Shown: positions 1 to 24,326 of the stretch, piece by piece
Layout of the letters: every line of letters begins with the position of its first letter
Position numbering within the stretch: the stretch's first letter is position 1
Virus record (IMG/VR): IMGVR_UViG_3300025120_000439
Location: 1-27,120 of that record
DNA length: 27,120 nt
Source of the DNA: a virus
Reading direction: 5' to 3' (one strand)
Position numbers and translations under genes: made by a program
Notes under the pieces: generated by a model
The model's input: the letters and a program-made list of their open reading frames with translations, nothing else
What the model was told of the DNA's origin: nothing
The model's database searches: none

Positions 1-357
1 AGGCTGTGCCGCAGATCCGTCTTGCATCCATTGCTTGGGCTTAGAGTTGGCATCGCCATACGTTTTCTTTGTGATCTTGGCGATGTAATGCCCGGTTTCA
101 TCCTTTTTAAACACGCCATCCAAAGACTTTGGCGTCCAATCTTTCCAATCGTCTTTGCGCTGGGCGTTAAACTCTTTGCGCATTGCCCCTGCCAGCGCCT
201 TTGCTTCATCCTCGTTCAGCACAACGTTGACCTCGTAGCTGCCCTCAACATCTGTGGCGTCAACACTGACGCTGCGGTTTTGCATGGCGTCGAACTTGTA
301 TGCTCTGTCCAATTTGGGCCAAAGGCATTCAACATTTTCAATTTTGTAGATCATCAT
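1..357 (-). CDS. Putative single-stranded DNA-binding protein, C-terminus beyond window
   Basis: This reading frame starts at an ATG-ATG pair (357 or 354) and runs open to the window edge, so only about 119 N-terminal residues are seen. An AGGAG lies 6-7 nt before the start. The visible protein opens MMIYKIENVECLWPKLDRAY and is rich in charged residues and short beta-prone stretches, with several aromatic residues (W-K-D-W near the middle, Y-I-A-K-I-T-K-K later). I read it as a T7 gp2.5-type or related phage ssDNA-binding protein, which would coat ssDNA during replication and recombination. That reading rests on general character and on its place just downstream of a RecE/Cas4-like exonuclease; no motif proves it. 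A separate promoter and operator-like motif precede it at 365-404, so it may be expressed independently of the upstream operon. Confidence 0.5.
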   Translation of the reverse strand, partial: MMIYKIENVECLWPKLDRAYKFDAMQNRSVSVDATDVEGSYEVNVVLNEDEAKALAGAMRKEFNAQRKDDWKDWTPKSLDGVFKKDETGHYIAKITKKTYGDANSKPKQWMQDGSAAQP

Positions 358-364
358 TTTGCTC

Positions 365-404
365 CTTGTATGATGTATATTTAGACTTGTATGGTTAGAT
401 TATA
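365..404 (-). promoter_or_regulatory. Promoter/operator-like element A before the ssDNA-binding gene
   Basis: On the minus strand a perfect TATAAT (404 to 399) is followed by the 15-bp motif CATACAAGTCTAAAT (393 to 379), and a second CATACAAG lies at 372 to 365, giving a direct repeat with a 21-bp period just before the ribosome binding site. The motif would cover the predicted start of transcription. No good -35 hexamer at 16-18 bp is visible. The same 15-mer recurs at 24241-24255 and, with one or two changes, at 3426-3440 and 3471-3485, always in the same orientation. Confidence 0.5.
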
Positions 405-1806: not shown

Positions 1807-1972
1807 TTTCAACCTCCCCTGATCCGCTGCAATCTTCACAGACCTCAACCCGCTCTTGGATATATCCGTTGTCCCGATCAAAGCCCTGCCGGTGATACAA
1901 TTCTATGAGGATAGTTCCGGTGCCGCCACATTCTGTGCAGATCAGCATCGCTTGGTTGCTAGGATTGCTCAT
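1784..1972 (-). CDS. DnaJ-type zinc-knuckle miniprotein (62 residues)
   Basis: The protein has two CxxCxGxG motifs of the DnaJ central-domain type: CTECGGTG (C12, C15) and CEDCSGSG (C45, C48), separated by about 29 residues. The four cysteines could bind one zinc ion. There is no J domain or substrate-binding domain, so it is not a chaperone DnaJ. The start at 1972 overlaps the upstream stop (ATGA), whereas an in-frame ATG at 2002 lies inside the preceding gene. Small free-standing knuckles of this kind are common in phages and are usually of unknown function; protein-protein or nucleic-acid contact is the likely role. The neighbour upstream is a PAPS-reductase-like enzyme. Confidence 0.8.
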   Translation of the reverse strand: MSNPSNQAMLICTECGGTGTILIELYHRQGFDRDNGYIQERVEVCEDCSGSGEVENGDSTEE

Positions 1973-2781
1973 CCTGTGCACTCCCCGTCTGAAGCCTGGC
2001 AAAGAAATGCCTCGTCATCGAATATCCAATCAAATTGACGCTGCACAAAGTCACCAAGCTGGGCATATCCTTGACTGTCGATAAATTGACTGCCGACCTT
2101 TTTCTCCATATCGACCCACCACTGCATTCTGTCAGGGTGAGAGCGCCACATTGCAGCTCTGTTTGCCTCGCTTTTAAGGAAACAGCCGTCACAATTACTT
2201 GTTGTTGTTAAGCGAAGGTCGTGACCAAATGCTGTATTTTGCTTCAACCAAAATTCAGCCACGTCAGGCTTTCTTATTTGAGCATTATTCAAAGGGAACC
2301 ATTGGGTGATATACTTTACCGGCGCTGGCTTTATACGCCGTGCCTCGTCTGCCCGTATCCCAACAGCGTTGTGCCATTTAGTCCATCCGATAGATTTCAA
2401 GTATTTCACTGTTGGCAGTATTTTTAATTTTCGCGTACAAAATCGGCGCACTACGTCAGGTAGCCTTTTATCTCTCACAATCATTTGCTCAAAAGGTTGT
2501 CCGTCCATAGCCGCGCTTTTGCGGCTTACTTCTGCAAACCCACTACCGTTGTTGCCGTCAAAATACTCGACCCAAGTAATAGAAACGTTCCAGCGATCTG
2601 AACAGGCTTGCACAAAGTCTAGCGTTTCGGGCATCTCCCGCCCCGTGTTGGCAAACACAACCTTTGCGCGGTCAGGCAAGCCGTCATTGGCCTTCAGTAT
2701 TTCGTGCAGCATGTAGCCGCTGGTTCTTCCACCGGAAAAACTAATTAGCACGTTACCATCGGGCAGGGTGTAATGGTTCAT
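1969..2781 (-). CDS. PAPS-reductase-family (adenine nucleotide alpha-hydrolase fold) protein
   Basis: This protein has 270 residues from the coupled ATG at 2781, which overlaps the previous stop as ATGA; an in-frame ATG at 2793 is the alternative. The PP-loop SFSGGRTSG (residues 14-22) binds the nucleotide phosphate, and GIRADEARR (141-149) is typical of the phage branch of this family. Cysteines at 115 (RRFCTRK), 197 and 200 (NCDGC), 261 and 268 could hold an iron-sulphur cluster or act in sulphur transfer. Family members reduce activated sulphate, or activate sulphur or nucleotides for base or backbone modification (DndC, ThiI and TtcA relatives). In a phage replication operon a nucleic-acid modification role is plausible but not shown. 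The family is clear; the reaction is open. Confidence 0.82.
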   Translation of the reverse strand: MNHYTLPDGNVLISFSGGRTSGYMLHEILKANDGLPDRAKVVFANTGREMPETLDFVQACSDRWNVSITWVEYFDGNNGSGFAEVSRKSAAMDGQPFEQMIVRDKRLPDVVRRFCTRKLKILPTVKYLKSIGWTKWHNAVGIRADEARRIKPAPVKYITQWFPLNNAQIRKPDVAEFWLKQNTAFGHDLRLTTTSNCDGCFLKSEANRAAMWRSHPDRMQWWVDMEKKVGSQFIDSQGYAQLGDFVQRQFDWIFDDEAFLCQASDGECTG

Positions 2782-3221
2782 AGCTTGACCCATGCCGCGC
2801 TCGCCATGATTTCGCGCGCCAGATAGCAGAAAAAATCGAGGTCGGTTTTTACGATATGCCGACGCGGTGTATCACTGCCGCCTCTGTATCCGCCAAGGCC
2901 GAGCGCGTTTGAGCAAATAGCAACGGTGGTCGCGCTTTGTCCTTTATAGCGGTAGAACACCGCCGGCAGTTTGCTTGCCTCATCGGCGGCATTGCAGGCT
3001 TGCTGCCACCATGCGGGCCTGAGATCGCAAAATCCTGATTTCGCGTATTTCTTGCATTCAATGGCGAATGGAAAGTTCGGCCAATCGCAAACAATGTCGG
3101 GCTGATTGGGTTTTTTCTGCTGATTATAAGGGTTTCGCGAGAACGCTTGGCCGAGTTCGAGGTTAAGAAAATTGACTATTTCGCGCTCGTAACCGCTGCC
3201 GATTGCATTTGCGTTAGCCAT
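2778..3221 (-). CDS. PD-(D/E)XK nuclease, Holliday-junction-resolvase-like
   Basis: In this 147-residue protein a helix with Glu (GYEREIVNFL, residues 10-19) is followed by QPDIV (D42) and AIECKK (E55-x-K57). That is the E...PD...ExK order of Hjc-like and related small nucleases. In T7-like phages a junction resolvase (gp3) debranches replicating DNA before packaging, and this protein could fill that job; restriction-like or VRR-NUC-type activity is the alternative. The segment around residues 66-85 is Trp/Ala rich (RPAWWQQACNAADEA) and may form the dimer or DNA-contact helix. It starts one base into the stop of the Arc-like gene (TAATG) and is coupled to the PAPS-reductase-like gene. Confidence 0.75.
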   Translation of the reverse strand: MANANAIGSGYEREIVNFLNLELGQAFSRNPYNQQKKPNQPDIVCDWPNFPFAIECKKYAKSGFCDLRPAWWQQACNAADEASKLPAVFYRYKGQSATTVAICSNALGLGGYRGGSDTPRRHIVKTDLDFFCYLAREIMASAAWVKL

Positions 3222-3403
3222 TAGCTGACCTCACCCGCTGCCTTGATCAGCTTTTCTTCGTACAAATCATCGTACAGATTTAGCCATTCACGCAATGCAG
3301 CCTCGGTTTCTTGACTTGGATTACGGATATTCTTACTTGCTGACGCTTTGACCGCATCAATGATATTGAGTGGTAACTGTATGTTAAACTGTGATTTTTT
3401 CAT
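3221..3403 (-). CDS. Arc-like ribbon-helix-helix DNA-binding protein
   Basis: This 60-residue protein begins MKKSQFNIQLPLNIIDAVKA. The stretch Q5-F-N7-I-Q9-L-P matches the Arc beta strand (QFNLRWP in P22 Arc), in which alternating Q, N and R read the DNA; here the third position is Gln. Helix A (about 11-24), a turn at NPSQ and helix B (about 30-42, ending REWL) complete the fold. The protein probably dimerises and represses by binding paired half-sites. It is the first gene of the leftward operon, and its promoter overlaps a repeated 15-bp motif (3426-3440), so autoregulation is likely. It may be the early or lysogeny repressor, or an Arc-style antirepressor control. The fold is strongly supported; the regulon is inferred. 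Confidence 0.8.
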   Translation of the reverse strand: MKKSQFNIQLPLNIIDAVKASASKNIRNPSQETEAALREWLNLYDDLYEEKLIKAAGEVS

Positions 3404-3425
3404 ACACGTTGGCTTTCTTTGTTGT

Positions 3426-3462
3426 ATTTAGATTTGTATGACATGCTAATATAATTGGTCAA
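3426..3462 (-). promoter_or_regulatory. Leftward promoter with overlapping motif copy B
   Basis: On the minus strand TTGACC (3462 to 3457) and TACAAA (3438 to 3433) are separated by 18 bp, giving a plausible sigma-70-like promoter for the early operon. The motif copy CATACAAATCTAAAT (3440 to 3426) covers the -10 region, so a protein bound there would block transcription of the Arc-like gene. It differs from copies A and D by one base. Confidence 0.45.
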
Positions 3463-3470
3463 TAGGCTAC

Positions 3471-3485
3471 TTTAGACTTGTATAG
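3471..3485 (-). promoter_or_regulatory. Motif copy C
   Basis: The minus strand reads TATACAAGTCTAAAG, sharing the core ATACAAGTCTAAA with copies A and D. It lies 45 bp upstream of copy B in the same orientation, close to four helical turns, an arrangement compatible with cooperative binding or with control of the rightward genes. Confidence 0.45.
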
Positions 3486-3790
3486 ATTAGTTTAATATGT
3501 ATGTTGAAAGTATAACTAGATTGGCTCGGATATGCGCGACGACACAGCGCTTAGCAAAGTAGAGGTATAAAACAGTGCAGACAGAAAGAGGAAGTGGGTT
3601 TATTTGGTCTAGGTATGTCCCGAAGTGGGACGCGGCGAATATCGTCATGCCAGCAACGAAAAGTAGTTTTGCTCAAGCTGGCGGTTGCTATGTGAACGCT
3701 TCAAGCTGGCAAGATTGCCCGACCGGCCCACCAACATTTTTAGTAGCCACGAAAAATAAACTGTATAAAAAAAATATCGGAGCGATGAAA

Positions 3791-4516
3791 ATGAGTACCA
3801 TGACAGCCGCTTACTTGCGGCCACGCGACAGTAAACCCGAAAATTTAAAAGAGCTAAAAGCTTATATCAAGTCCAGTGAACTCTCGCCCACTTGGTTTCG
3901 GGAGACAGATGACCATCGAAGCATGCGTCCAGAGGATCGACCAGCATTGGGTCGCGCTGTCGAATTTTGTAAGAATAAGAACGTTGCGCTATCAGCCGTT
4001 TGTCTTACACAGTTTGCGACTACCAAGCACGAGGCGTTGGCGTTTTTAAAATCTGCTGGTGTTGAGTTCAACGTAATTGAAAGTCCAAGCATCAACCGCA
4101 ACAATGTTGCACTGGCTCTTGATATTGCTCTTGACGATGTCAAAGCAGTAGCCAGCAGATCAAAAGCATCGTTGGAAAAAATACAGGCTCAATTTGCTAA
4201 CGGCAAAGCACACGTCAGTAAGGCAGGAAACATGGTGAGCAAGCTTGGATCACCAGATCCATCTTTAGCCAACAAACGCAAGAGTGAAATCGTACTCGCT
4301 AGAACAATGAATTATTTTAAAACATTGTCAGACTTTAAAGAGCAAGGATTGAGCTATCAGCAGATCGCAGACACTTTAAATTCACATGGTATCGCAAGCC
4401 CCACTTCCACCAAAACCAATCCAAAACTTTGGTACGCCAGCGGTGTCCGTAATTATTACTTGCGGGGTAAAAATGCTAAGAAAAAACTTAATACCATCAG
4501 CGTTAAAACGCAATGA
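3791..4516 (+). CDS. Serine-recombinase-like protein lacking catalytic residues
   Basis: From the ATG at 3791 (GGAG 8 nt upstream) the protein has 241 residues. Its layout is that of a small resolvase/invertase. A first strand AAYLRPRDS lies at 6-14. RPALGRAVEFCKNKN (50-64) resembles the RPxLxxAL helix. The conserved strand-helix region follows, then a long helix (115-137) and a C-terminal HTH (LSYQQIADTLNSHGI, 187-201, then a VRNYYLR-type end). The nucleophile expected in YxRxS is not in place (YLRPR), and the DRLxR motif reads TQFAT, so strand cleavage is unlikely. It probably binds DNA as a regulator or recombination accessory. It sits where a lysogeny regulator is expected, upstream of xis-like and int. 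A GTG at 3575 would add 72 doubtful residues. Confidence 0.7.
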   Translation: MSTMTAAYLRPRDSKPENLKELKAYIKSSELSPTWFRETDDHRSMRPEDRPALGRAVEFCKNKNVALSAVCLTQFATTKHEALAFLKSAGVEFNVIESPSINRNNVALALDIALDDVKAVASRSKASLEKIQAQFANGKAHVSKAGNMVSKLGSPDPSLANKRKSEIVLARTMNYFKTLSDFKEQGLSYQQIADTLNSHGIASPTSTKTNPKLWYASGVRNYYLRGKNAKKKLNTISVKTQ

Positions 4517-4727
4517 CGCCGCTGAATTTTGCGGAATATCGCTCACCCAGTTTGCCAAGATGGTAAAGCTGGGATCACTACCGCCAGCAAGAAATGCCGG
4601 TGGCGCTAAAATTTGGCTGCTTTCAGAACTTCAAGACAGTCTGGACGGCCTTGAAATCTCACAACCTAAAGACGTGGGGGGGGGCGATTCAACCAATAGG
4701 TTATTCGGCATAGAGGGAGAACCATAA
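4473..4727 (+). CDS. Excisionase/AlpA-like helix-turn-helix protein
   Basis: This 84-residue protein carries a MerR-type winged HTH as in AlpA and phage excisionases: NDAAEFCGIS (14-23) is the first helix and turn, LTQFAKMVKLGSLP (24-37) the recognition part, then a wing with AKIW (45-48). The start at 4473 follows GCGGGG; the longer frame from 4386 lies inside the upstream gene. It overlaps the recombinase-like gene by 44 nt, and its stop overlaps the integrase start (TAATG). As a recombination directionality factor it would bend attachment-site DNA to favour excision. A run of nine Gs (4676-4684) near the 3' end encodes VGGG; gain or loss of one G would cause early termination. Confidence 0.72.
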   Translation: MLRKNLIPSALKRNDAAEFCGISLTQFAKMVKLGSLPPARNAGGAKIWLLSELQDSLDGLEISQPKDVGGGDSTNRLFGIEGEP

Positions 4728-5839
4728 TGCGCGGATCTGGAATTTGGCTAAAACACTTAAATTCGTCAGGCTGGAACACCAACGGCACACAACGGTTTTA
4801 TTTCCGACCCAAAAATGAGCGCTCACCATTCCCTAAAGAATGGCGAATGCCAGCACAACCGCCGCACCACCCTGCGTTTCTGTCAGCTTACGCGAAAGCA
4901 TGGGATCTTTGGGTATTGATGCAAGACGGTGAGGCAGTGCAAGACCCGGCGTATGCAGGCAGTCTGGCAGAGGCGGCTGTGGGGTATAAGGCAAGTCATG
5001 CGTTTGGCTTGTTGGCAGAAATCACCAGACAGCGATACCGCGCCATGCTGGAAAACACCGTCGATTCATATGGCAAAGCGCAAGTTAAACATATCCAGCG
5101 TAAGCATGTGCAAAAAGATTTGTCACGGTTTGATGGTCACGCGCAAATTAATCAACTTAAAATGTGGCGGTCTTTTGCTAAATATTTTGTTGTGCAATAT
5201 GCGCTTGACCTTGACCCTACTGATAATATCAAGAGAGCTGCCGTAGCCAAAAGTGACGGTCACACGCCGTGGCAAGCTTTGGACGTGGTAAAGTTTCGTA
5301 ATCACTTTGATCTCCAACAGCCAGCAAGACTAGCACTTGAAATTCTTAATTGGACAGGCATGCGCTGTGTTGATTTAGTGCGGCTGGGCCGGGGCAATAT
5401 TACTGATGATGGTTGGCTGCACTTTAAGCAGCACAAGACAGGTGGCCCAGTGTATGTACCATTACATCGCCACTTGCCTGACTTTGCGTTAAGCATGATT
5501 GAGGATCAGCAGTTTTGCATTAAGGCAATCCAAGCAGTGCCTAAAGATCACCTGACGTTTTTGGTAACATCAAGGGGAGCAAGCAGGTCAGAAAAGTCTG
5601 TCTCAAGCTGGTTTAGTAAAAAGGCTAAACAGGCTGGACTTGCTGACGATCTCACCGCCCACGGTTTAAGGAAGTTTCGTGCAATCCAATGCGCGGAAGC
5701 AAACGCAACCGCCCCACAAATTATGGCTTGGACGGGCCATGAAAGCTTGTCAGAAGTGCAAGCCTACATCAAAAAGTTCTCGAAAAAAGCAGTGCTTACA
5801 AGTACAAGACAAGAACAAAAAGCTCCAACATTTTTATAA
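4727..5839 (+). CDS. int: Tyrosine-family phage integrase
   Basis: This 370-residue protein shows the full catalytic set of tyrosine recombinases: R213 in WTGMRCVDLVRL, K237 in the beta-hairpin QHKTGG, H312 and R315 in AHGLRKFRA, H338 in AWTGHES, and the nucleophile Y347 in AYIKKF. Residues about 80-175 resemble the SAM-like core-binding domain. The first 50 residues (GTQRFYFRPK and nearby) resemble the basic arm-binding or leader segment seen in alphaproteobacterial phage integrases. It should integrate and excise the phage at attP/attB. The start is coupled to the excisionase-like gene. A hairpin with a T run follows the stop. Repeated elements at 5815-6013 may be its arm sites. Confidence 0.93.
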   Translation: MRGSGIWLKHLNSSGWNTNGTQRFYFRPKNERSPFPKEWRMPAQPPHHPAFLSAYAKAWDLWVLMQDGEAVQDPAYAGSLAEAAVGYKASHAFGLLAEITRQRYRAMLENTVDSYGKAQVKHIQRKHVQKDLSRFDGHAQINQLKMWRSFAKYFVVQYALDLDPTDNIKRAAVAKSDGHTPWQALDVVKFRNHFDLQQPARLALEILNWTGMRCVDLVRLGRGNITDDGWLHFKQHKTGGPVYVPLHRHLPDFALSMIEDQQFCIKAIQAVPKDHLTFLVTSRGASRSEKSVSSWFSKKAKQAGLADDLTAHGLRKFRAIQCAEANATAPQIMAWTGHESLSEVQAYIKKFSKKAVLTSTRQEQKAPTFL

Positions 5840-6013
5840 GTTGGAATTTTTTATATGAAAAAGGAAGTAAAATCAAATGGTTAGCATGGTAATGGCGCAC
5901 CTGACAGGACGCCCAGTAACAAACAATAACAACAACTTATGTCAAAAGCTTGGAACTTTAGCGCTCACAAACGCGCACAAATGTCAGTATGTTACACGCG
6001 AAAGTTCCAACTT
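5815..6013. repeat. Repeated TTGGAACTTT-type elements, candidate attP arm sites
   Basis: Related elements occur as TTGGAATTTT (5841-5850, plus), TTGGAACTTT (5950-5959, plus), the same ten bases on the minus strand (6010 to 6001), and TTGGAGCTTT on the minus strand at about 5828-5819. The 5950-5959 and 6001-6010 copies form a perfect 10-bp inverted repeat around 41 bp. Their place just after int is what arm-type integrase sites would show. No tRNA-like segment is recognised here, so no core is called. Confidence 0.35.
5824..5852 (+). terminator. Weak intrinsic terminator after int
   Basis: TCCAAC (5824-5829) pairs with GTTGGA (5840-5845) around a 10-nt A/T loop and is followed by A and six Ts (5847-5852). 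The stem is only 6 bp, so termination would be partial, and the two downstream plus-strand genes could still be read. Confidence 0.4.
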
Positions 6014-6146
6014 TAAGCCCCGTATTTCAACGGTTTTAACAGAGGCAATTGCCGTCCTTGCGGTAGGCTTAGGCATTTGGGCTGCTGCTTGGGCAGGCTG
6101 TGCGGTCAGTGACGCTTGTTTCGCCGCACAAGGGGGATTGTTTTAA
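5877..6146 (+). CDS. Small protein with one hydrophobic segment
   Basis: This 89-residue frame starts at 5877 with GGAAG 9 nt upstream. The N-terminal half is polar with a run of Asn (VTNNNNNL). The C-terminal third (about residues 53-78, with IAVLAVGLGIWAAAWAG) could span a membrane. The stop overlaps the next start (TAATG), which supports real translation of both. Because it covers the repeated elements after int, the N-terminal half may reflect att-site DNA rather than selected protein. Small membrane proteins in lysogeny modules can act in superinfection exclusion; nothing specific supports that here. No family is recognised. Confidence 0.5.
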   Translation: MVSMVMAHLTGRPVTNNNNNLCQKLGTLALTNAHKCQYVTRESSNFKPRISTVLTEAIAVLAVGLGIWAAAWAGCAVSDACFAAQGGLF

Positions 6147-6400
6147 TGGTAAATATCGCATCCCTTGGTGACGGCGTTGAGCCAACCTTTGACGAAATGT
6201 GCTTGGCGCATAAGCATGCAACCGCTGAGTTGTTCAACCAATCAAATCACCGATCAGGCTGGCAAGAAATCTATGATCAGTCGCAAGCTGTGCTGTTGGC
6301 AATCTTAGAGGAAGCCAGATCAAACGTTGTGAGAGGGAAAACCTTTACCCTCAAGCTGACGCCAAAAGGTTTGCAGATTGTGCCGCGCAAGGTTCATTAA
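6146..6400 (+). CDS. Small unknown protein (84 residues)
   Basis: The start at 6146 follows GGGGGAT and overlaps the upstream stop; a longer frame from 6116 lies within the preceding gene. The protein is soluble and helical (FDEMCLAHKHATAELF; YDQSQAVLLAILEEARSNV) and ends in a short beta stretch (KTFTLKLTPKGLQIVPRK). I recognise no family. It is the last plus-strand gene, and its stop codon overlaps the stop codon of the convergent late operon by a few bases, so no room exists for a terminator between the two transcripts. Confidence 0.6.
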   Translation: MVNIASLGDGVEPTFDEMCLAHKHATAELFNQSNHRSGWQEIYDQSQAVLLAILEEARSNVVRGKTFTLKLTPKGLQIVPRKVH

Positions 6401-6564
6401 TATTTGCGCCCTTTGCCTATGATTGATTTCTTTGCGGTCTTTGCGCTGTCTTTGAAATCCTTGGCACTGGGCGCACCCTTAGATCCAGCCTTGCGCATTT
6501 TTTCGCCTGACCCGCCTGCGATACGTTTGCGCTTTTTGTTTATGTTCTCATAGAGTCCGGGCAT
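6397..6564 (-). CDS. Small very basic phage protein (55 residues)
   Basis: Translation from the ATG at 6564 gives a 55-residue protein opening MPGLYENINKKRKRIAGG, then a GEKMRK motif and a Lys-rich C-terminus ending KGRKY. Small proteins of this type (MPGLYxNIxxKRxRI... GSGEKMRxxG) are, from memory, recurrent in marine podoviruses and myoviruses, often near terminase, portal or lysis genes, with unknown function. The basic charge suggests nucleic-acid or virion-DNA contact. It is the last gene of the leftward late operon and its stop overlaps that of the plus-strand gene at 6146-6400. Confidence 0.75.
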   Translation of the reverse strand: MPGLYENINKKRKRIAGGSGEKMRKAGSKGAPSAKDFKDSAKTAKKSIIGKGRKY

Positions 6565-6568
6565 TGCT

Positions 6569-6769
6569 TTATCCTTTTGCTTTGTTTCGTTTGCTGATTG
6601 CTTTTGATTTGCGCTTGGCTTCAGCCTTTGACGAGGCTCCCCAATCGCGCAGGGATGACAGCAGTGGCGTTGCCTTACCGTCCTTGTATTCTGGCCCCGG
6701 CATGTTACCCATGCGCGCCAGAAAGCTTGCTCGTCTGGGGTTGTCGCCAGACTTAACGGGTCTACCCAT
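6569..6769 (-). CDS. Small basic conserved phage protein (66 residues)
   Basis: The protein opens MGRPVKSGDNPRRASFLARM, continues with GNMPGPEYKDGKATPLLSSL and WGASSKAEA, and ends in a Lys/Arg-rich tail. Proteins with this SGDNPRRxSFLARM...GPExxxGKPT pattern are recurrent in marine phages and of unknown role. The ATG overlaps the muramidase stop (TAATG), and the next small basic gene starts 4 nt past its end, so both are translated as a cassette after lysis. No enzyme motif or membrane segment is present. Confidence 0.8.
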   Translation of the reverse strand: MGRPVKSGDNPRRASFLARMGNMPGPEYKDGKATPLLSSLRDWGASSKAEAKRKSKAISKRNKAKG

Positions 6770-7284
6770 TAGTAATCGCCAAGCATATCTAGCGCCTGAT
6801 CGCGGGTTTCGTCATTGCGCCGGGTCCAGCCTTTTATAAACATTGGCTTGCCTAGATCATTGTAAAACTTCTGGCGCACCTCGTGCATCTGCCCTACTAA
6901 TTTTTCAGCGTTTTGATCCGCAACAGCCTTCAGCGTCATTGGCCCTATTGCACCATCTTGCTTGGCCGCTACGCATTTCTGCAACATCTTGGCGGCTCTG
7001 CTTGGGCCTGAGTTTACGGCCACATCAACAACGCACCAATCAACGCCAGCCGGCAGATCATCACCGCGCACCTTGTCGAAATACCATTTCTTGTATAGCG
7101 GCTTAACATCGTCTTTGGTGAGCGACCTCATATCTGCCTCAGTAGCATCGCGCTTGATCCAATCGGCCCAGACCTTGCGTGTGACGCCAAGGTTGGTCAT
7201 GCCGCCCGGATCATCGGGATGATCTACGAAACCGCCCTCATGTTTAATGATCCACTCGAAAATTTGATCCCAAGATTGTTTCAT
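6769..7284 (-). CDS. GH108-type N-acetylmuramidase (endolysin)
   Basis: This 171-residue protein has the glycoside hydrolase 108 start: FEWIIKHEGGFVDHPDDPGG, with the catalytic Glu in HEGG (E16), then TNLGVT. VDVAVNSGPSRAAKMLQ (about 88-104) and DGAIGPMTLKAV (about 112-123) lead into the peptidoglycan-binding-3 type C-terminal half. It cuts the glycan strands of the host cell wall at the end of infection. There is no signal peptide, so export relies on the holin encoded just upstream. Its length is normal for the family. Confidence 0.9.
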   Translation of the reverse strand: MKQSWDQIFEWIIKHEGGFVDHPDDPGGMTNLGVTRKVWADWIKRDATEADMRSLTKDDVKPLYKKWYFDKVRGDDLPAGVDWCVVDVAVNSGPSRAAKMLQKCVAAKQDGAIGPMTLKAVADQNAEKLVGQMHEVRQKFYNDLGKPMFIKGWTRRNDETRDQALDMLGDY

Positions 7285-7658
7285 TAGCTTACCTTTTTAA
7301 CCTTTTCAAAACTACGCATTCCTGCCAAACCCAGCATGCCTGTCAGCACCGGCATCATGACGGCCATATCTGCTTGTGGGATGTTGACGCCAAACCCGGC
7401 GGCGATTGGTGAGACCAGAAAGTTGACCGCTAGACCGATCACACAGACGTAACCGCATAAGGGTCGCCAGCTTGATTGAAACCAATTGCCAGCGGCCTCA
7501 ACCTTGTTAACCTCAAGCTGCGCTAGTGTTTGCTCATGCGCCATCCTATCGCCCATTGTGGCAATCTCATGCGCCAGCCGTGCGGCCTCGCCTTTGTCGG
7601 GTATAACCTTATCAAGCAAGCCGGTGACGGGGCCAATCAAAGCGTTGAGTATGCTCAT
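7284..7658 (-). CDS. Holin of the GTA 3TM type
   Basis: In this 124-residue protein an amphipathic N-terminal part (about 1-58) is followed by the family signature GNWFQSSWRPLCGYVC, a membrane segment (about 70-85), a second hydrophobic stretch around 95-115, and a short basic tail. This matches the 3TM holins of gene transfer agents and alphaproteobacterial phages. It should permeabilise the inner membrane to release the muramidase. Its ATG and the next gene's stop are adjacent, and it lies directly upstream of the endolysin in transcription order. Confidence 0.85.
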   Translation of the reverse strand: MSILNALIGPVTGLLDKVIPDKGEAARLAHEIATMGDRMAHEQTLAQLEVNKVEAAGNWFQSSWRPLCGYVCVIGLAVNFLVSPIAAGFGVNIPQADMAVMMPVLTGMLGLAGMRSFEKVKKVS

Positions 7659-7849
7659 TTCTCAGACCCTAGCCATACTGCAAAAGCCCCTGTCATTGAC
7701 CCAGAACAGATAGAAATCATTGCGCTTTGCTGTGTAGACAGGTCATCTAAAGACATGCCCCATTCAATCACGCGGATATACATGACAGTCATTACGAACA
7801 TCATGAGCCGGGGCATGATTTTGTATTCTAGTATTTTTTCAAAACCCAT
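7655..7849 (-). CDS. Small two-segment membrane protein, holin-like
   Basis: This 64-residue protein has two predicted membrane segments: about 12-30 (PRLMMFVMTVMYIRVIEWG) and about 43-60 (AMISICSGSMTGAFAVWLG). The DLSTQQSA linker between them is polar. The size and topology suit a class II holin or an antiholin. It overlaps the 3TM holin gene by 4 nt, so two holin-type proteins would be made from one cassette. Confidence 0.7.
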   Translation of the reverse strand: MGFEKILEYKIMPRLMMFVMTVMYIRVIEWGMSLDDLSTQQSAMISICSGSMTGAFAVWLGSEK

Positions 7850-9059: not shown

Positions 9060-11639
9060 TTATGCGTCCTTTAGTCCATAGAGTGCGAATTTGCCCGCAG
9101 CAAAAGTTGTCGTGGAAGGCTTGACTATCATATATGTCATGTTGCCACTTGTGTTTGGCGCAATGGCACGGATTCTAGGCGAGGCAGAAGAGTTAGTGCC
9201 GGTAACAAAATAAGCATTGAGATCCACTGGGCTATTAGTTCGTCCACCAATTACTCCAGAAAATCCAAACCTTGTGTCGGTGGTCGGGGTGGTGCCTGAG
9301 AGCATGGTAGTGTTATATGCCCATTCCGAGACTGTTGCGATACTACTAGCGCTCTCTACCCCTTGTTGATACTTAAGGCTCATTCTGTTAGTGCCAATAG
9401 AACTACTGTTGTATGCACCATTATAAAAAACGAAATACAAACAATACTGGTTTGAAGGGGCCGCACTAAAAGCACAATCATGTGCAAATATATAATAACT
9501 ACCATAAGAGGAACTGCTTAAATCAAATTCAACTTGCGCTGTAGCACTGCTAACTGTTTGTGTACTAATATGTACATAGTCAGATGAACCGCCCCCACCA
9601 CTAGCCGCCCAAGTTAAACCGCCTGTATTTCCGCTTTGTGCCGACAAAAAATATCCATTAGTTGGACTATTGCTCACTTGCAATTTGCTTTCATTGATTG
9701 CTTCGCCAGCAATTTTTGCTTGCGTGACATTTGCATCTGCTATGTGTGCGGTGTCTATTGAGCCATCGACGTACTGGGCAGAGTCAATGCTATTTGCCGC
9801 CATTTTCGCAACAGTAATCTGACTATCTGCAAGGTGGGCCGTATCAATACTGCCATCAACATACTGTTCACTGTCCACAGAATTATCAGCCAGTTTAGCA
9901 TTTGTAACAGCGTCAGCATTTATTTTTGCTGTCGTGACTGCGTTGTCGGCAATTTTAGCTGTAGTGACCGCACCATCTGCCACCGATTGCGCGACCCAAT
10001 CCAGATTGCCAGAGCCATCAGTTTTTAAAACTTCATTGGCAGAGCCATCGGTGTTTGGTAGAGTTAAAGTATAACTTGCGGCTGCGCTATGAGGTGGCCC
10101 TTTTATTGTAATGCCGTGCGAGTTTTGTTCGCAGTTAAGCACAAACTGACCAGCGCCCTTGGTTGCATTGCCCTTAAAAGTAACCTTGCCAGAACCATTT
10201 GGATCAAGTTCAATAGCCCCATTTGAGGTTGAAACAATATCTTTCCCGTTTACATCAAGATTGCCGCCGAGCTTCGGAGATAAATCAGCGACTAGACCAG
10301 CAGTTACGCCGCTTAGTTGGCTGGTAAGCGCAACCGTTCCGTCAAGGTCGGGCAATGTGATTGTCCGTTCGTCGTTGCTTTCGCCTCCAGATTTTACTGA
10401 GATTGACCCGAAATAGCCACCATTCACTGAGTTTTCAAACTTCAAAGAATTGCCAACCTCAACATTACCGGCGAATGTTGCAGTGCTGCCGCTTGTCAAA
10501 TTTGCGCTGTTTGTCAAAGTTAAAATTACGCCGCCAGATATGCCCGAATTATTAACTATCTGCAACGTTTTTGCTGGATCGTTTTTAGCAAAAAACCCCC
10601 AATCATCACCATCATCATCGCTATTATCTGCGATTAGAAAAAAGTTACCGTCTTGTCCGTTGCCCCCTTTGACGGTAAGCGCAGGAATTTCAACGCTGCT
10701 AGAGCCAGCGATTGCAGCCATAGCCGTAACGTTTGCAGATGTGCCGAGAACACCCATTGCCGTGACGTTTGCAGACGTTCCAAGCCGCCCTATTTCTGTG
10801 GCTTTGCCAGCAACGGCAATAACGTCAGAACTTGTTGCCCAATACTTTGCAGAAAAATTACTGCCGTCTACTGTAGCGTCTGTTTTGATTGCCCATTGAG
10901 ATGCTAGTACAGCAGACGCCGCCGCTTCACTGGCTTTTGTGGCGGCTGTGCTGGCGCTTGTGGTCGCGCTGGCGGCGTCAACAATCAACGCCCATTTAGC
11001 TGCGTCCGTGTTTGTTGTAAGAGGCTGAGATCCCGAGCTTGTGTGCGCAGTGACCGCTATGAAGATATTATTAGTGCTGGTGTCTTTGACCAGATCCCGC
11101 ACCGCATATACTGTGCTTGCCGCCCAATTGCCACGATACGTGCCAAGTTCTTGAGAGATTTGTAAGTTGCCAGAGCTATCAAATGCAAACACTTTGTTGG
11201 CTCGGTCAGTTGCGCTGACGGTAAATTCAGTTGTGGTAATTGTGTTGGCTTTTGACGCCTTAATTGACCGTCCGATTTCCTCTTCATGCGTTTGCACCAT
11301 GAACGTGAGCTTGTCTAAACTCGCCTCTAAGTTTCCCGCTGGGAAAGGATCGTTTGGCACTAAATCCAAGCCTTGCAAGTTGGGCTGCACTCGAAGGATT
11401 GTGAGGGTGGTGCCGCTGGCTGGCGCTGTTCCCATCGTGACATTGCCGCCAGATGCTTCACCGACTCCGCTGACTGTGTAATTGGTTGTAAGGCTTTGCG
11501 TTGTTTCAGTGCCAGTTGCAGTTACCCGCAAGATTACCAGCAGGTCAGTCTGTGCAAAGATTTTAAAATTGTATGCGAAAACGGTTGTTGAGCCGTCACC
11601 GTTGAAAGTAACTTTTTGGTTGGTGGATGTGACGGTCAT
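9060..11639 (-). CDS. Tail fibre with T7-type N-terminal domain
   Basis: In this 859-residue protein the N-terminal ~155 residues (starting MTVTSTNQKVTFNGDGSTTV, including LDKLTFMVQTHEEEIGRSIK) match the T7 gp17 virion-attachment domain. The middle is low-complexity and Ala/Thr/Ser-rich with repeats: LGTSANVTAM appears twice around 10725-10790, and a 29-residue unit (SVDSEQYVDGSIDTAHLADS and a near copy) covers about 585-643, within a longer series of TTAKIAD-like units (from about 552). Such repeats form trimeric shafts. The last ~170 residues, ending AGKFALYGLKDA, form a probable receptor-binding tip. It sets host range by binding a cell-surface ligand. Confidence 0.9.
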   Translation of the reverse strand: MTVTSTNQKVTFNGDGSTTVFAYNFKIFAQTDLLVILRVTATGTETTQSLTTNYTVSGVGEASGGNVTMGTAPASGTTLTILRVQPNLQGLDLVPNDPFPAGNLEASLDKLTFMVQTHEEEIGRSIKASKANTITTTEFTVSATDRANKVFAFDSSGNLQISQELGTYRGNWAASTVYAVRDLVKDTSTNNIFIAVTAHTSSGSQPLTTNTDAAKWALIVDAASATTSASTAATKASEAAASAVLASQWAIKTDATVDGSNFSAKYWATSSDVIAVAGKATEIGRLGTSANVTAMGVLGTSANVTAMAAIAGSSSVEIPALTVKGGNGQDGNFFLIADNSDDDGDDWGFFAKNDPAKTLQIVNNSGISGGVILTLTNSANLTSGSTATFAGNVEVGNSLKFENSVNGGYFGSISVKSGGESNDERTITLPDLDGTVALTSQLSGVTAGLVADLSPKLGGNLDVNGKDIVSTSNGAIELDPNGSGKVTFKGNATKGAGQFVLNCEQNSHGITIKGPPHSAAASYTLTLPNTDGSANEVLKTDGSGNLDWVAQSVADGAVTTAKIADNAVTTAKINADAVTNAKLADNSVDSEQYVDGSIDTAHLADSQITVAKMAANSIDSAQYVDGSIDTAHIADANVTQAKIAGEAINESKLQVSNSPTNGYFLSAQSGNTGGLTWAASGGGGSSDYVHISTQTVSSATAQVEFDLSSSSYGSYYIFAHDCAFSAAPSNQYCLYFVFYNGAYNSSSIGTNRMSLKYQQGVESASSIATVSEWAYNTTMLSGTTPTTDTRFGFSGVIGGRTNSPVDLNAYFVTGTNSSASPRIRAIAPNTSGNMTYMIVKPSTTTFAAGKFALYGLKDA

Positions 11640-23281: not shown

Positions 23282-24142
23282 CTATTCTGTACACGCGATT
23301 TCTACGACCATTTCTTCTTGCATGCGGGTAGCCCCAATGCTCTGGCAGTAGTAAACTTGAGTTGCGTATGATTTATCTGCGCGTTCATCGATACGGGCGG
23401 TTGGCTCTTTGCCAATTCCCAGCTTGATGCCCTCTTGAGCAAATGCAATCACGGCGCGATTGCCGTCACTATCAAGCGTTAAGCGATTGGAAACAATGAA
23501 TTTAAAATTCATAAACGAGTCCACAGATCCAGTTGCAAGAGCCTTTACAGTGTTAAAATCACTCGACGTGACTTGCGTTGTGCCAAGCAAAGTTGAAATC
23601 TGTTTTGGCGCGCAAACAATGTAACGAGGGATTGAAGGATCAACACTTGATTCATCCAAGATTTGCTTTGCTGACAGCAGTTTTGCTATCGTCAAAGACG
23701 CAGAACCGTGCGCAACTTTTTGACTACTTGGCAGGCTCGTATCAGTTGAACCAGTTTTGCCGGTCTTAGCCACGCCAATAGCAGCGGCAATGATCACGTC
23801 ATCCATCGCCCGGCCCATCGCGGCTGCGGCGGCTCGTGCATAGGTTGAAGTAGGATCTGCTAACAGACGAACTTTATCTTGAGAATCGATCAAATCAGCG
23901 TATTCATAATCGGCAAGCGAAAGCATGCGCCTTGAATGCGGTGTATCGATTAGCGGGGTATCTGCGTGTCGAGTCGTGCGAAGCTGTGCGGCAACACTGC
24001 CGACCTGATCGCTGAAGCTTTTTTCGCCAGTGACGGACTCTGTTGTTACTGCATCACGCAGCAGCGAACCCATTTGCTGCGAGAGCATTTGGATGTTGGC
24101 AGAGTATTGCTGGACAAAAGCTGTAGTGATTTGTGAGGACAT
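23282..24142 (-). CDS. Major capsid protein
   Basis: This is a 286-residue protein from the ATG at 24142. AGGAG lies 8 nt upstream and would overlap the alternative GTG at 24151, so the shorter form is preferred. The sequence has an N-terminal helix (SSQITTAFVQQYSANIQMLS), RRMLSLADYEYADLIDSQDK (about 76-95), a spine-like helix (TYARAAAAAMGRAMDDVIIAA) and beta segments SFMNFKFIVSNRLTLDSDGN and GIKLGIGKEPTARIDER, all typical of small HK97-fold coat proteins of marine podoviruses. It is preceded by an unusual regulatory stretch (24152-24326). Confidence 0.88.
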   Translation of the reverse strand: MSSQITTAFVQQYSANIQMLSQQMGSLLRDAVTTESVTGEKSFSDQVGSVAAQLRTTRHADTPLIDTPHSRRMLSLADYEYADLIDSQDKVRLLADPTSTYARAAAAAMGRAMDDVIIAAAIGVAKTGKTGSTDTSLPSSQKVAHGSASLTIAKLLSAKQILDESSVDPSIPRYIVCAPKQISTLLGTTQVTSSDFNTVKALATGSVDSFMNFKFIVSNRLTLDSDGNRAVIAFAQEGIKLGIGKEPTARIDERADKSYATQVYYCQSIGATRMQEEMVVEIACTE

Positions 24143-24151
24143 TTGTCTCAC

Positions 24152-24326
24152 TCCTAAGCTGTTGAAATATAATGGTTTTGATCGCGGCGGTTATCCCGTT
24201 TGGGGCCGTGCTTGACGTTGCCGTCATACAAGTATGATAGATTTAGACTTGTATGACGGCGTTAAAGATTGTCAGTCTGCTTGACACACAAGCTTGGTGC
24301 GCGGGGCTTTCGCTTATCCGCTAAAC
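24152..24326 (-). promoter_or_regulatory. Capsid leader region with inverted repeat and motif copy D
   Basis: This is the longest gap in the late operon (175-185 bp). It contains a perfect 14-bp inverted repeat GCCGTCATACAAGT / ACTTGTATGACGGC (24220-24233 and 24247-24260, 13-nt spacer). The right arm and spacer hold the shared 15-mer (24241-24255). On the minus strand CTGACA lies 16 bp before TACAAG, a possible promoter. No T run follows on either strand, so it is not an ordinary terminator. It may be an operator/promoter for capsid genes or an RNA hairpin. Confidence 0.6.

Follow-up and report, generated by a model that had tools for sequence, protein, structure and literature searches.

Genomic Features of the Window

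The window, that is, the whole stretch of DNA analysed here, is a 27,120-base IMG/VR virus contig, a fragment of a genome with a G+C content of approximately 47%. Its capsid protein is 72% identical to that of Pelagibacter phage HTVC010P, and it also encodes a tyrosine integrase, a recE-like exonuclease, a PAPS-reductase-like protein, and a PDDEXK nuclease. The phage is marine and, because it carries a tyrosine integrase at 4727..5839, temperate; presumably, it infects a bacterium. Phages of the HTVC010P type rank among the most abundant viruses of the sea, and to our knowledge hardly anything is known of their gene control. Another contig, L134, extends the phage beyond the left end of the window, with 1469 of 1474 positions identical across the overlap. 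The features relevant to the analysis are as follows:

1..357, minus strand: SSB-like gene, running off the window; the full version in L134 encodes 205 aa ending in ...IDDEIPF
367..393, minus strand: 27-bp block CATACAAGTCTAAATATACATCATACA upstream of the SSB-like gene, ending beside the ribosome-binding site of that gene
3221..3403, minus strand: Arc-like probable ribbon-helix-helix (RHH) protein, 60 aa (MKKSQFNIQLP...), opening the leftward lytic operon and overlapping the start of the next gene
3426..3440, minus strand: proximal operator-like site upstream of the arc-like gene, CATACAAATCTAAAT
3470..3484, minus strand: distal operator-like site, TATACAAGTCTAAAG, 44 bp upstream of the proximal site
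3575..4516, plus strand: 313-aa gene divergent from the arc-like gene, matching the C-terminal Recombinase domain weakly; alternative candidate binder
4476..4727, plus strand: HTH_17 (excisionase-like) protein; alternative candidate binder
4727..5839, plus strand: tyrosine integrase, marking the phage as temperate
23282..24142, minus strand: major capsid protein gene, 72% identical to HTVC010P
24182..24324, minus strand: conserved element of structured RNA upstream of the capsid gene (covariance model, E 1.4e-14), hairpin P3 replaced by the palindrome
24220..24260, no strand assigned: 41-bp palindrome around the capsid copy of the motif, with 14-bp arms GCCGTCATACAAGT and ACTTGTATGACGGC and a 13-bp loop
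24241..24255, minus strand: operator-like site upstream of the capsid gene, exact motif

The SSB-like gene was named from its acidic ...DDEIPF tail, and the SSB-like genes matched no Pfam family. The gene body is exchanged in some relatives, with the upstream 27-bp block and the acidic tail kept (L007 from 13047, L133:350-1027, and L134:1131-1748). The PAPS-reductase-like gene (1969-2793, minus strand), a possible auxiliary metabolic gene, is flanked by the nuclease gene and the gene of a small zinc-finger-like protein. A terminator-like hairpin is present at 408-423, in the end of the recE-like gene.

Motif Copies in the Window

The initial annotation had listed four minus-strand copies of the motif CATACAAGTCTAAAT lying before genes. 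A direct check of the window letters confirmed that all four exist: two exact copies at 379-393 and 24241-24255, one with a single mismatch at 3426-3440, and one with two mismatches, which occupies 3470-3484 and had been placed one base away, at 3471-3485. The list had left out a further two-mismatch copy at 723-737, within the recE-like coding sequence, which was not found at the corresponding place in the closest informative relative (G044, below). A three-mismatch copy is present at 11561. The statement that the copies face the same way holds in the window and fails outside it, where L134 carries an exact copy on the opposite strand near the terminase gene.

With the motif given beforehand, none of 100 dinucleotide shuffles reached at least six motif matches (mean 0.8). 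Scoring all 15-mers of the window is a fairer test than the shuffles, since the motif had been chosen for being repeated. In this scoring the motif ties for the top count (5), and two coding 15-mers likewise reach 5, which is what might be expected of chance repeats in an AT-rich setting. The core TACAANTCTAA occurs in five copies, one of them inside a coding sequence, against a Markov mean of 0.065. Taken by itself, the window shows a modest excess of motif copies, and this evidence is only suggestive.

No convincing sigma-70 promoter was detected at a constant distance from the sites. The motif was also considered as a sigma-70 -10 box and rejected: TTGAC-like hexamers lie at 16, 18 or 19 nt in some sites, which is inconsistent and no better than in shuffles.

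Comparison with Relatives

A pattern search of virus contigs recovered the capsid copy in 30 of them and the site before the SSB-like gene in 10. In the best relative, G044 (IMGVR_UViG_3300029787_000181; 33,534 bases), the initial 100 bases are repeated at the end with 98/100 positions identical, so that the genome is probably complete at some 33.4 kb. Identity to the window is 58% for the Arc-like protein and 50-55% for the remaining proteins of the module. G044 contains exactly four copies of the core TACAANTCTAA, every one on the plus strand and in places homologous to those of the window: a pair, 46 bp apart, precedes the Arc-like gene, and the SSB-like and capsid genes are each preceded by one. 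A count of 0.025 was expected from Markov simulation (maximum 1 in 200).

The sites are conserved against diverged flanks. When the window is set against G044, the 27-bp block upstream of the SSB-like gene agrees at 27/27 positions and its flanks at 29/75, while the two arc sites share 27 of 28 positions and the remainder of that region 44 of 103. The 44-46 bp spacing of the double site is preserved among relatives, and the 27-bp block is retained in L007 and L133 although the SSB-like gene has a different body there. The Arc-like gene is carried by two clades only, and in each of the six Arc-bearing contigs the arc gene is preceded by the double site and the SSB-like gene by its single site. 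The core was found in a single copy in total (reversed control, 2) among 23 relatives and isolates in which no Arc-like gene was detected, the cultured HTVC010P included; five isolates among these 23 were scanned for the motif, and the Arc-like gene was sought there by a phage-wide protein search alone, which found none. The near-complete integrase-less relatives have neither the Arc-like gene nor the motif.

A search of relatives had been proposed in the initial annotation, with random occurrence of the motif in relatives lacking the gene named as evidence against a regulon. The motif proved to be present in Arc-bearing relatives and essentially absent from those without the gene. These comparisons are decisive for the reality of the motif, and they strongly support a shared, selected element upstream of the arc-like, SSB-like, and capsid genes. 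By the same comparative data, with four homologous positions occupied in a divergent genome against 0.025 expected, the chance repeats considered above are already refuted.

The same distribution bears on whether the motif, instead of being a repressor site, could be a phage-specific promoter served by an RNA polymerase or sigma factor that the phage encodes. A promoter would fit the uniform orientation of the copies that precede genes, in the window as in G044, and the long block that takes in the region beside the start. However, the Arc-less relatives of the same phage group lack the motif, and the Arc-clade records gave no match to sigma region 4 in a search whose positive control was detected, nor to a T7-type RNA polymerase in a search whose positive control also gave none. 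The promoter explanation is thus very improbable.

The regulon may extend to the terminase region, since L134 has motif copies there: an exact one at 7668-7682 (minus strand), in the region upstream of the terminase gene and on the strand opposite to terminase transcription, and one with a single mismatch at 7518-7532 (plus strand), upstream of the same gene. Degenerate motif-like sequences (CATACAAATATAATC and similar) also precede the terminase gene in relatives, at L130:855-869 (minus strand), L106:871-885 (plus strand), and L126 around 2725-2745. In L134, small genes annotated without a function (5231-7373, minus strand) form a cassette between the replication and terminase modules that runs against the lytic genes. 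Prophage searches with the tail protein gave no match, and those with the capsid protein gave 12 contigs with a convincing motif copy in none; searches with the PAPS reductase and with the integrase returned few loci.

The Arc-like Protein and the P22 Operator

The product of the arc-like gene had been described as an Arc-type protein with the reading residues Q5, N7, and Q9. In the alignment of five Arc-like homologues, Q5 and N7 are kept and the third reading residue is Q9 or K9, whereas P22 Arc reads with Q9, N11, and R13. The Pfam Arc family (PF03869) scored 12.9 bits against a cut-off of 20.4, and only two of the five homologues were listed at all. A profile built from the five homologues matched, over residues 4-45, an RHH chain of the CopG family (9kkd) at 1e-4; its match to P22 Arc stood at 0.17, and the pattern QFN[IL]x[LW]P was shared. 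The PHROG Arc-like repressor family was matched by all five homologues, with a best E of 0.012. Fold prediction of the monomer, at low confidence (pLDDT 65), gave helices at 12-25 and 31-58 and assigned no strand. The protein is likely an RHH protein; Q5 and N7 of the earlier description were borne out, and strict membership of the Arc family was not.

P22 Arc is known for the ant promoter and not for capsid or ssb genes. The present protein resembles it in size, in the QFNxxxP ribbon, and in being a putative phage regulator, and differs from it in the third reading residue (Q/K, not R), the sub-cut-off Pfam Arc score, and an unshared operator. The initial annotation had recognised the octamer ATGATAGA as part of the P22 Arc operator. 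The octamer is indeed present at 24234-24241, inside a non-conserved spacer, but it is confined to the capsid copy of the window clade, and relatives carry TTACCTG-type spacers instead. The octamer was thus rejected as a P22 Arc operator half-site, and its resemblance to the P22 operator is, on this comparison, coincidental.

Capsid Leader RNA

An element of approximately 97 nt is common to the capsid-gene upstream regions of this phage group. Its architecture consists of two mirrored units, each a stem, an internal loop of AYAA opposite C, and a stem-loop, flanking two hairpins. Across 32 phages, 11 of the 18 pairs have changed on both sides and 96.7% of the cells pair; this pairing was equalled by no shuffle, and slid controls gave 27-40%. 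A descriptor of the unit (stem, AYAA, hairpin, C, stem) was applied with a set score as the threshold. The first unit reached that score in 54/72 capsid upstream regions against 0 in shuffles, and the mirrored second unit in 22 of the 72 against 0.2. The positive regions include those of HTVC010P, Lederberg, Greip, a freshwater phage, and an Ensifer adhaerens contig; L143-L145, L147, and L158 are further loci of the leader RNA. Among the 4227 Rfam models, none matched the window up to E=1, and none matched the leader in nine relatives at the gathering threshold. The leader may be a more novel observation than the regulon, and, being present in the cultured HTVC010P, it is testable in an existing phage-host system. 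In one relative, the capsid gene region contains a group I intron match (L053:7634-7862; Rfam RF00028, E 1.5e-14).

In the window, the covariance model places a 58-nt stretch with the palindrome and the motif where the short hairpin P3 would be. The shared element could alternatively work as RNA, with the sites in 5' leaders forming hairpins or binding a protein as RNA: the capsid copy is a strong hairpin within a well-supported structured RNA, and the SSB block abuts the ribosome-binding site. Nevertheless, the remaining copies show no comparable hairpin on inspection, and the terminase-side copy in L134 lies on the strand opposite to terminase transcription. In the capsid stem, position 8 varies (G/T/A) so that the pair with C is lost in most loci, and the single-stranded TCTAAA is conserved as well as the stem. 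An RNA function for the element as a whole is accordingly improbable. Because the unpaired TCTAAA is conserved and the pair at position 8 is not kept, these features argue that the palindrome of the Arc clade is primarily a DNA site. It is tentatively conceivable, though doubtful, that the capsid copy has a double duty, in which a DNA operator was inserted in place of P3 and capsid output is set by the RHH regulator on DNA together with the RNA.

Candidate Binders and the Proposed Regulon

The initial annotation had assigned control of early, ssDNA-binding, and capsid transcription to one small protein. A shared, selected element before these genes is supported by the comparisons above; the Arc-like protein is, however, not the sole candidate binder, as two other putative DNA-binding proteins co-occur with it. 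The 313-aa, HTH_17, and integrase genes all co-occur with the arc-like gene, so co-occurrence cannot single out the binder. The regulon might be real but bound by one of two other products of the module, the HTH_17 protein (excisionase/AlpA-like) or the 313-aa recombinase-like protein encoded divergently: both genes adjoin the double site, which lies in the divergent region separating the arc and 313-aa genes, and both are conserved alongside the arc-like gene in the two clades (50% and 52% identity). We know of neither family, recombinase-like or HTH_17, acting through several small scattered operators, which counts against this assignment. RHH proteins, on the other hand, commonly autoregulate via repeated sites adjoining their own gene (PMC5569661). 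Another binder from the module is thus unlikely, and one regulator, most likely the Arc-like protein, probably controls all three genes. As a separate observation, the 313-aa gene resembles a degenerate serine recombinase in which the usual catalytic serine seems by eye to be missing.

The preferred reading, to which we give a probability of about two in three, is that an RHH regulator controls its own gene and a small regulon via shared operators, in the manner of SvtR. A small RHH DNA-binding protein would be made from the gene that opens the leftward lytic operon. It would recognise one common operator (core TACAANTCTAA; CATACAANTCTAAAY in full), of which two copies lie ahead of its own gene and a single copy ahead of each of the SSB-like and capsid genes. 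Its binding beside the transcription and translation starts would lower transcription of its own operon, of the replication/recombination genes, and of the capsid gene. By analogy with known regulators, two sites before the regulator and one each before the SSB-like and capsid genes suggest that it regulates itself and holds back replication and capsid genes. The RHH fold, the Arc-like protein as binder, repression instead of activation, and the timing are what we infer in this scheme.

In phage lambda, cro is the first gene of a lytic operon, and the Cro operators lie in a divergent control region. The arc-like gene likewise opens a lytic operon with its operator-like sites in a divergent control region, while Cro has a helix-turn-helix fold and operators at OR and OL only. 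Because the arc-like gene is co-transcribed with lytic genes, its position argues for a Cro-like role rather than the maintenance of lysogeny. The repression pattern might resemble that of Cro (early shut-down) or of SvtR (structural gene held back). The small RHH protein SvtR of the virus SIRV1 represses its own gene and also binds at three other sites in the viral genome, most strongly before a structural gene (PMC5569661). The candidate regulator has sites before its own gene and a structural (capsid) gene, too; SvtR, in contrast, belongs to an archaeal virus and recognises another binding sequence, and the targets here are the arc-like, SSB-like, and capsid genes of a phage whose host is presumably bacterial. 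AvtR of Acidianus filamentous virus 6 (AFV6) is a viral RHH regulator with approximately eight sites per genome, conserved in relatives (PMC5569661), although it is a tandem RHH in a single chain and both activates and represses. As in SvtR/AvtR-like regulons, a shared operator-like element precedes both the gene of the candidate regulator and other genes of the virus, and the system would belong to the already known viral RHH regulons. A search of the available literature found no paper on such a regulon in these phages or on the capsid leader RNA. For the temperate branch of the HTVC010P-type group, the proposal amounts to a compact, testable regulon of one 60-aa protein and four sites.

An integrase-bearing relative, G012 (L033 record), carries a CI-like HTH repressor at 26970-27713 in place of the Arc-like gene. 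It was considered as an independent Arc-type regulon and rejected, as the protein there is of the CI type and no Arc-like gene was detected in G012. Since G012 has this repressor instead of the Arc-like gene, the comparison suggests that the lysogeny module is swapped between related phages.
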